Source: Bauldia sp. (GTDB lineage Bacteria > Pseudomonadota > Alphaproteobacteria > Rhizobiales > Kaistiaceae). Taken from it: DNA of 64,000 nt. The position numbers and the translations under genes are program-made. Within the stretch, counting starts at the first letter, position 1; the number at the start of each line of letters is the position of its first letter. Below, one piece after another: positions 5,989 through 33,410 of the stretch. Under the pieces are notes generated by a model that made no database searches, was not told the DNA's origin, and worked only from the letters and a program-made list of their open reading frames with translations. Location of the stretch: assembly GCA_020849325.1 (NCBI GenBank), contig JADLGL010000009.1:17810-81809 (forward strand), written 5' to 3'.

Positions 5989-6115
5989 GATCATTCCCGC
6001 GGAGGCGGGAACCCATCCCTCTTCGCAACAAAAGCCAGCGCAAAGCGCTGACGGCCCGACCTTCGGTCGGACCTTTTCGTCACCGCGATGGGTCCCCGCC
6101 TCCGCGGGGACGATC
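5989..6115. repeat. Palindromic intergenic repeat (family A, copy 1)
   Basis: gatcattcccgcggaggcgggaacccatcc ... gcgatgggtccccgcctccgcggggacgatc; internal gccagcgcaaagcgctg and gaccttcggtcgga match the copy at 49489-49613. Confidence 0.85.
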
Positions 6116-6177: not shown

Positions 6178-6203
6178 AAAGGCCGCCCGAAGGCGGCCTT
6201 TCC
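6178..6203. terminator. Hairpin AAAGGCCGCC-CGAA-GGCGGCCTTT, terminator-like
   Basis: Perfect inverted repeat with the same arms as 5801-5825 but a different loop. Confidence 0.5.
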
Positions 6204-6232: not shown

Positions 6233-6492
6233 CTAGAAGTCCATGCCGCCACAGGAAGTCGGCTGTTGCCGACTTCCCAAGCAAGAAGCATGGGCGGCCC
6301 GGGGGCCGGCCATCTGAACCTAGAAGTCCATCCCGCCACAGGAAGTCGGCTGTTGCCGACTTCCCAAGCAAGAAAGCATGGGCGGCCCGGGGGCCGGCCA
6401 TCTGAACCTAGAAGTCCATCCCGCCACAGGAAGTCGGCTGCTGCCGACTTCCCAAGCAAGAAAGCATGGGCGCCCCGAACCTTGCAGTTGGA
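6233..6492 (-). repeat. Three tandem ~85-88 bp units (6233-6319, 6320-6407, 6408-6492) each including the groEL stop-codon end
   Basis: Each unit starts ctagaagtccat[g/c]ccgcc (reverse complement of GGCGGGATGGACTTCTAG, i.e. G-G-M-D-F-stop) and carries aagtcggctg(t/c)tgccgactt. Confidence 0.92.
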
Positions 6493-8498
<2,006 letters not shown>

Positions 8499-8546
8499 GG
8501 GGCTCTTCCCTTTGTTGCGCGACCGGCCTCGGCCGCGCGGGTGGCT

Positions 8547-8573
8547 TTGGCACTCTCTGGGAGTGAGTGCTAA
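8547..8573 (-). promoter_or_regulatory. CIRCE (HrcA operator) upstream of groES
   Basis: TTGGCACTC-N9-GAGTGCTAA; one mismatch to the consensus TTAGCACTC-N9-GAGTGCTAA. Confidence 0.88.
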
Positions 8574-8745
8574 CAGGACGCCGCGGATTTAGGAGCGCGC
8601 CCTGGGGGTGTCAAGGCGGCGTGGCCGGATAATCCGGGAGGCGGAAGTGCGGGAAGGGGCGAATAGGGAGTAGCGAATAGGGAAGCGGTGAGTGGTGAGT
8701 GGGTGAAGAGCCGGCGGCGACCCGAGCCTCGGGCCCCGTTCCCCG

Positions 8746-8794
8746 CTATTCGCTATTCGCTATTCGCCATTCGCTATTCGCTATTCGCTATTCA
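8746..8794. repeat. Seven tandem 7-bp units (CTATTCG)n with related inverted sequence at ~8658-8706
   Basis: CTATTCG x3, CCATTCG, CTATTCG x2, CTATTCA; upstream gcgaatagggagtagcgaatagggaagcggtgagtggtgagtgggtga is partly its reverse complement. Confidence 0.9.
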
Positions 8795-32152: not shown

Positions 32153-32264
32153 GGTCACCTCAATGCCGAGGGGCCAAAGTCCGATCCGGCGCTTCCTTGG
32201 ACGGCGGACGGCCGTCCAGGCAGCGACTGACCGGGACACCCCGCCCCGAGCAAAGCAACGTTCG

Positions 32265-32425
32265 TCGAGGCAGGTCTCCTGGCTCGCGGGTCAGCACCGT
32301 CCCGACCGCCTTCCCGGCGCCCTTCGGCGCCAGTGGTTCGATCGTCGGGCGGCTCGCCGCTCACAGTTGCGGGGGCAGCTCCGGCATAAGCCCTTGCGGG
32401 CGTTACCGGATTCCCTCTTAGCTCA
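32265..32425 (-). promoter_or_regulatory. Cobalamin (adenosylcobalamin-type) riboswitch
   Basis: Minus strand: TAAGAGGGAATCCGGT...CCGGAGCTGCCCCCGCAACTGT...CCACTGG...GGGAAGGCGG...CCCGCGAGCCAGGAGACCTGCC. Confidence 0.93.
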
Positions 32426-32636
32426 CCGGACCGCGAACGGCGCCGGTGAGAACCACGACGCCGCCATGTCGGCCCGGCGCGGGGCCGGTGTCAAGCGCGG
32501 CACGCTTTTCCACAGGCGACGCGGAACGGCGCCGCGCGCCGGGGCGTTGGCAGCCCGTGGCGGTGCGCTTGCCGAACCGGGGCCGACCGCACACATGATG
32601 GGGAGCCGCGCCAGCGGCAGCACGACGGAGGATGCG

Positions 32637-33264: not shown

Positions 33265-33410
33265 GAGCCTCCCCTTGCGGGGAGGCGGAAGGCCGGAGCG
33301 TCGCCGGCTTCGGAGGGGGGCGCGGTCTCGCGCTCGACACCTGCGAGCGGGCTTACCCCTCCCGAACCGGCGAAGCACCGGTTCCACCTCCCCGCGAGGG
33401 GAGGTTCAAC
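33265..33410. repeat. Palindromic intergenic repeat (family B, copy 2, inverted)
   Basis: gagcctccccttgcggggaggcggaagg...ttcggaggggg...cccgaaccggcgaagcaccggttccacctccccgcgaggggaggttc. Confidence 0.7.

Follow-up and report, generated by a model that had tools for sequence, protein, structure and literature searches.

A hairpin cassette that repeats the end of its neighboring gene behind groEL and other genes in Bauldia and related bacteria

The 64,000-nucleotide stretch of Bauldia sp. DNA analyzed here (the window) carries groEL, and behind it a tandem array at 6233-6477 (period 88, 97% matches) whose Tandem Repeats Finder score of 462 is far above that of every other tandem repeat in the window. 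Each repeat follows the layout b-end-stop-b'-spacer-B-b-end-stop, in which b is a segment of the gene end, b' is its inverse complement, and B is a perfect hairpin. The features are as follows, with R2 denoting a model of the core alone.

6493..8130, minus strand: groEL, 545 aa, start MAAKDVRF (PF00118, 8.2e-82)
6493..6510, minus strand: gene copy of the duplicated block, the final five codons plus stop, GGCGGGATGGACTTCTAG; b = GGCGGG
6408..6492, minus strand: unit 1 (85 bp), with the post-stop stretch, b' at 6464-6473, hairpin B at 6429-6452, and a gene-end copy at 6408-6425
6464..6473, minus strand: b' of unit 1, GCGCCCATGC, complementary to the coding-end GCATGGGCG
6429..6452, minus strand: hairpin B of unit 1, 10-bp stem with AGCA loop; R2 match of 39.8 bits
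6320..6407, minus strand: unit 2 (88 bp), with a GC palindrome at 6381-6399, b' at 6376-6386, hairpin B at 6341-6364, and a gene-end copy at 6320-6337
6233..6319, minus strand: unit 3 (87 bp), with a GC palindrome at 6293-6311, b' at 6288-6298, hairpin B at 6254-6277, and the distal gene-end copy at 6233-6250
6178..6201, minus strand: probable intrinsic terminator, AAAGGCCGCCTTCGGGCGGCCTTT followed by CTGTTT, as read from the sequence; also in the sister species

The initial annotation had described three extra gene-end units with hairpins, and these are real. The last 18 nt of groEL, GGCGGGATGGACTTCTAG, stand at 6493-6510 in the gene itself and again at 6408-6425 and 6320-6337, and a third extra copy, GGCGGCATGGACTTCTAG, lies at 6233-6250, so that the gene's own copy is joined by three extra ones, and the units measure 85, 88, and 87 bp. 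The duplicated block covers the coding end plus the 3' UTR, as had been stated. Hairpin B, GGAAGTCGGC-ARCA-GCCGACTTCC, with a 10-bp stem and a four-base loop, is found in all three units (6429-6452, 6341-6364, and 6254-6277). Also present in every unit is CGCCCATGC; it is the inverse complement of GCATGGGCG, the coding end, which can therefore pair with it across the stop. The GC-rich palindrome GGCCGGCCCCCGGGCCGCC, assigned by the annotation to the two distal units, was recovered there (6381-6399 and 6293-6311) and is missing from unit 1; units 2 and 3 are nearly identical and match R2 with 46.0 and 51.6 bits. The 341-nt array region, whose folding had been proposed as a check, has a predicted fold of -191 kcal/mol, far better than that of shuffled sequences (z = -7.3). 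The suggestion of an amplified terminator array was not supported. Hairpin B leads into TGTGGCGG rather than into a U tract. The probable terminator (6201-6178), which a consensus terminator scan did not pick up, sits outside the units, beyond the array. There is no second copy of the array in the same genome, which yielded only short partial matches elsewhere.

Several other features were noted in the window. A GGGTCCCCGCCTCCGCGG-type palindrome occurs in paired copies at 6000-6105, downstream of the groEL terminator. Upstream of groES lie a CIRCE-like operator, TTAGCACTC-N-GAGTGCCAA, at 8545-8575 and, ~250 bp upstream of that gene, seven copies of the 7-bp unit CGCTATT (8744-8793), with more TATTCGC pieces nearby; the number of CGCTATT units could differ between strains. 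A Whalefall-1 sRNA match (Rfam; 39.2 bits against a gathering cut-off of 37) adjoins a tRNA at 33354-33407, and a cobalamin riboswitch (108 bits) lies on the minus strand at 32252-32472.

In two other genomes of the genus, whose GroEL is 89-92% identical, the stop codon leads directly to the terminator and there is no array. The distal copy in the window (GGCGGC, then TCCTCGCG...) resembles the gene end of these sister species, which places the extra material between the present end of the gene and the old 3' UTR. A single unit of this layout was found in a different genus of the same family (G008) and in a further genus (G011). The annotation had allowed that all related genomes might lack the array; this applies to the two sister species and not to the other genera. 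Unit number thus differs among close relatives, from zero in the sister species to three in the window, and ranges from 1 to 4 across loci. An assembly artefact, which had also been raised, is an unlikely source because independent assemblies, complete genomes among them, show the same build.

When two gene-end copies 42-72 nt apart were required, a pattern search of a collection of 84,980 species matched 47 contigs, every one bearing a Hyphomicrobiales-type name (Mesorhizobium, Aminobacter, Stappia, Pannonibacter, Microvirga, Methylobacterium, Devosia, Aurantimonas, and others). The pattern also matched 13 of 398 Hyphomicrobiales genomes and none in the control. With a covariance model, R1, about 76 of 398 Hyphomicrobiales genomes (roughly a fifth, from many families and usually with one unit) scored at least 42 bits, in a tally counted by hand that includes a few genomes, such as those of L171 and L176, without a cassette on reading; weak R1 matches near 29 bits were groEL coding ends alone. 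One genome outside the order (G540) carried the cassette in a class-wide sample of 240. Most genomes have no cassette, and the counts vary with sample and threshold. L117, L146, and L154 have an additional palindrome of greater length (e.g. CGAATAATCCCG...CGGACAAGATTATTCG) directly between the groEL stop and the cassette.

The cassette is typically about 55-65 nt long, and the inserted part measured about 50-115 nt in every locus read. At groEL loci, the duplicated block begins with b = GGCGGC and runs through ATGGACTTC plus the stop codon, which is often followed by GAAGTCCAT, the inverse complement of ATGGACTTC; next comes b' = GCCGCCCAT, which is inverse-complementary to ATGGGCGGC, and after a spacer and hairpin B the block is repeated. 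Variants of b are tracked by b', with GTCGCC accompanying GGCGAC in L144, L177, and L315 and GGCACC accompanying GGTGGC in L106. The sequence of hairpin B varies by lineage with its pairing kept: changes on both sides of the stem were found at 11 of 11 pairs in an alignment of 59 sequences and at 9 of 9 pairs in a smaller one of 32, the compensatory pattern looked for in an element maintained by base pairing. The downstream copy matches differing GroEL C-termini, namely GDMGF (L159 and L144), GMDMM (L150 and L151), GGMM (L165 and L172), and GGMGF (L139, L142, and L168). Since the loci were found partly through a search for intact copies, this conservation is no evidence of selection and was set aside as a proof of it. 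An in-frame coding role of the copies was rejected, as their spacings (68-88 nt) fall in all three phases.

The boundaries of the insertion are sharp. Gene end and copy in 74 single-unit loci share an identity of 0.92, which drops to 0.62 exactly past the stop codon, part of the copy being the selection window. In Mesorhizobium, an empty site reads TAA directly followed by TCCAGCC, and filled sites read TAA, then 58-60 bp, then GGCGGCATGGACTTCTAA, and past that junction TCCAGCC (in a site with 58 bp, the bases past the junction are given as TCCAAGCC); filled and empty forms differ by one cassette together with a direct repeat of 18 bp whose end coincides exactly with the stop. Further filled and empty pairs one unit apart are L176/L103 and L178/L117. 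The repeat is longer in other lineages, and in family f19 and in g113 and g131 of family f41 the duplicated block includes the terminator, so that the cassette lies between two terminators.

The cassette is not specific to groEL. Strong R2 matches occurred only there, and weak ones revealed the same layout at unrelated genes. A MarR-family gene ending in ERFWTDQILYRL has b = GCGCTTC and b' = GAAGCGCTCC, then a hairpin and its last 12 codons repeated (AAGCGC of b' again tracking GCGCTT of b); this cassette is carried by six genera of two families, with three units in G130. In the genome of the window itself, paralogues of a small glycine-rich gene (L208, L209, and L210 on contigs C4, C38, and C10; end CMQGYALPY, ..AAFGACMQGYALPY) stand at three contig ends with one or two units each, where b' = GGCGGC tracks b = GCCGCC and the hairpin is CCCAACCGGGGCAAGCCCCGGTTGGG. 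The unit repeats probably broke the assembly at these contig ends. A scan for hairpins with flanking direct repeats over ~1.9 Mb, part of which had been picked for holding such loci and which covered about a quarter of the window's own genome, returned only these gene-end loci, one collagen-like coding repeat, and one unit-register duplicate; a shuffled control of 670 kb returned 0. Separately, double palindromes whose stems resemble that of hairpin B (e.g. CCCAACTCGGGCAAGCCCGAGTTGGG) were seen dispersed in intergenic regions at L211-L214 and L217-L220 (G011 and G008) and at L225-L227 (G106), and are possibly the source of the cassette hairpin.

Pairing across the stop codon is widespread at groEL, also where the cassette is absent. 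Complementarity of at least 6 nt between the last 10 coding bases and the first 12 bases after the stop was found in 91 of 142 distinct groEL ends, against 0.9% of shuffles, and coding and non-coding sides change together (GGGCTTC/GAAGCCC in L139, L173, L175, and L179; GGATTTC/GAAATCC in L055 and L171), which is hard to ignore. Among predicted folds, the stop hairpin formed in 66 and an alternative structure in 33 of 91 free RNAs, the latter rising to 73 of 91 with the stop region blocked. These results, along with the covariation of hairpin B, speak for a selected 3'-UTR RNA element. The coding end would pair with b' around the stop codon until a ribosome sitting on the stop let b' pair with the downstream copy, enclosing hairpin B; switching between these states would signal termination or shield the 3' end of an mRNA that is abundant, and extra units would act as dosage. 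We regard this proposed role as a possible explanation, though a doubtful one. With the terminator lying inside the block that is duplicated, transcription would seldom reach the cassette; most genomes do without it; and a bistable fold follows automatically from two gene-end copies. The excess of G-U over A-C mismatches was non-significant, at 11:6 and 15:7; strand-specific wobble as a proof of RNA selection, first counted as 18:6 (two over-extended stems omitted), was dropped when the stricter recount lost significance. The included terminators and the non-significant wobble bias are the reasons that we do not prefer the RNA element.

We give roughly even chances to the explanation that we do prefer, in which the cassette originates and spreads as DNA, through a hairpin-dependent event that duplicates or regenerates the gene 3' end, a step we infer from several lines of evidence. 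Filled and empty sites lie one unit apart, and identity drops exactly after the stop. The terminator within the duplicated block of f19 and f41 is not predicted by a purely 3'-UTR role. The same build recurs in other sequence at the MarR gene and the small-gene paralogues, with b' following b; both sides of hairpin B change at all 11 pairs; units number 1 to 4; and the scans point to gene ends only. Candidate events are an insertion with a long target duplication, a single-stranded-DNA type of insertion guided by b':b pairing, and replication template switching at b and b'. Because the gene end stands on both sides, gain, loss, and tandem repetition would leave the protein intact. Later inheritance would be mostly vertical, with losses through recombination of the direct repeats and occasional amplification of the cassette, which would produce the patchy distribution and, by slippage or repeated insertion, the three units in the window; hairpin pairing could be kept by selection or by palindrome-correcting copying. 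Weighing against a DNA-level origin, the genome of the window has no match to a Y1 transposase or a reverse transcriptase, and the restriction of strong core-model matches to groEL means that the cassette is not dispersed like an ordinary mobile element. Empty sites are equally expected from deletion between direct repeats, and the stop-codon hairpin also occurs without the cassette. That the cassette recurs at groEL and at one and the same MarR gene in different families suggests that it is selected for a function at these genes.

Two further explanations share some of this evidence. The near identity of units 2 and 3 and the absence of the array from two sister species would fit a neutral, recent slippage repeat with no wider meaning, as the annotation had considered. 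Slippage may account for no more than the rise from one unit to three, that is, for copy number; the cassette itself, in single-unit form with a covarying hairpin in many families and at other genes, contradicts it, and as a full account we think it very improbable. Integration into gene ends is classically marked by a direct repeat of the 3' end of the gene that includes the stop, and the cassette shows such a repeat, as a scar would if larger site-specific integrative elements attached at the groEL 3' end and restored it. The inserts are only about 50-115 nt, with no kilobase-sized version in the loci read, and the build recurs at unrelated genes with a gene-matched b', making a scar very improbable, marginally more so than slippage. 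The DNA-level origin and an RNA role may both be true in part. More speculatively, and in our view rather unlikely, the cassettes could represent a class of tiny elements, not described before, that maintain themselves and home to the stop codons of genes by means of a hairpin and a gene-matched guide (b'), regenerate the gene end on insertion, pass between genes by acquiring a new b', form tandem arrays, and are driven by a host enzyme.

Behind one of the most abundant bacterial transcripts, then, lies a structured cassette that copies its neighbor's last codons and is found order-wide. It represents either a small mobile palindrome of a new kind or a new form of RNA control at the 3' end. 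As direct repeats ease loss, its persistence poses a testable question. Annotators should also be aware that the end of groEL, a gene that serves as a sequence marker, can occur in repeated form.

The cassette was finally compared with known systems. With Rfam 15, no family exceeded its gathering cut-off in the array region or in eight homologous loci, nothing relevant appeared in the array region at an E-value threshold, and full-text searches, which covered open-licence papers only, found no description of such an element, in agreement with the annotation's impression that none had been described. The right end of IS200/IS605-type elements comprises a guide, a hairpin, and a cleavage site, which the cassette order b'-hairpin-b resembles, and from general knowledge of these elements insertion after b would be expected to yield b[Y b' B b]Y and tandem arrays; the cassette differs in its gene-specific b' of 6-10 nt, in showing no dispersal, and in that no transposase was found. 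Site-specific integration likewise gives a direct repeat of the gene end up to the stop with the protein intact, and both the repeat and a matching empty site were found here, as deletion would also predict; the cassette insert, however, is about 60 bp long, has no genes, is too short to encode a recombinase, and has a b' complementary to the repeat. Diversity-generating retroelements share the gene 3' end, the downstream hairpin, and the gene-end copy, whereas cassette repeats span about 18-80 bp, reverse transcriptase (PF00078) is absent from the window's own genome and from 19 of 24 genomes, and differences between copies are not adenine-specific, their spectrum being mixed with T>C and G>T commonest. 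The dispersed double palindromes of G008 and G011, which we take to be rhizobial intergenic palindromic mosaic repeats (RIME-type), have similar stems but are dispersed and lack a gene-end copy.

REP/BIME palindromic repeats with RAYT transposases, known in GTAG- and CGTC-tagged families (PMC3733652) and surveyed with RepRanger (PMC12306157), are also short perfect hairpins beside stop codons, and REPs at most 15 nt from a stop reportedly stall ribosomes (PMC12306157). The cassette has a stem sequence that is free between lineages, a flank that is always a gene end with its stop, and a b' that matches the gene; no GTAG or CGTC tag occurs in the 59-sequence alignment. A Y1 (RAYT-type) transposase (PF01797) was matched in 2 of 34 genomes and not in the window's own, where strong core matches lie at groEL only rather than at many dispersed hairpins. 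REP clusters that repeat in tandem together with flanking DNA are nevertheless the nearest described behavior (PMC3733652). On the strength of that likeness, and given the outcome of the Rfam, REP/RAYT, diversity-generating retroelement, and terminator-array comparisons, we place the cassette among short palindromic gene-end elements, although the chance that it forms a class of its own is substantial.
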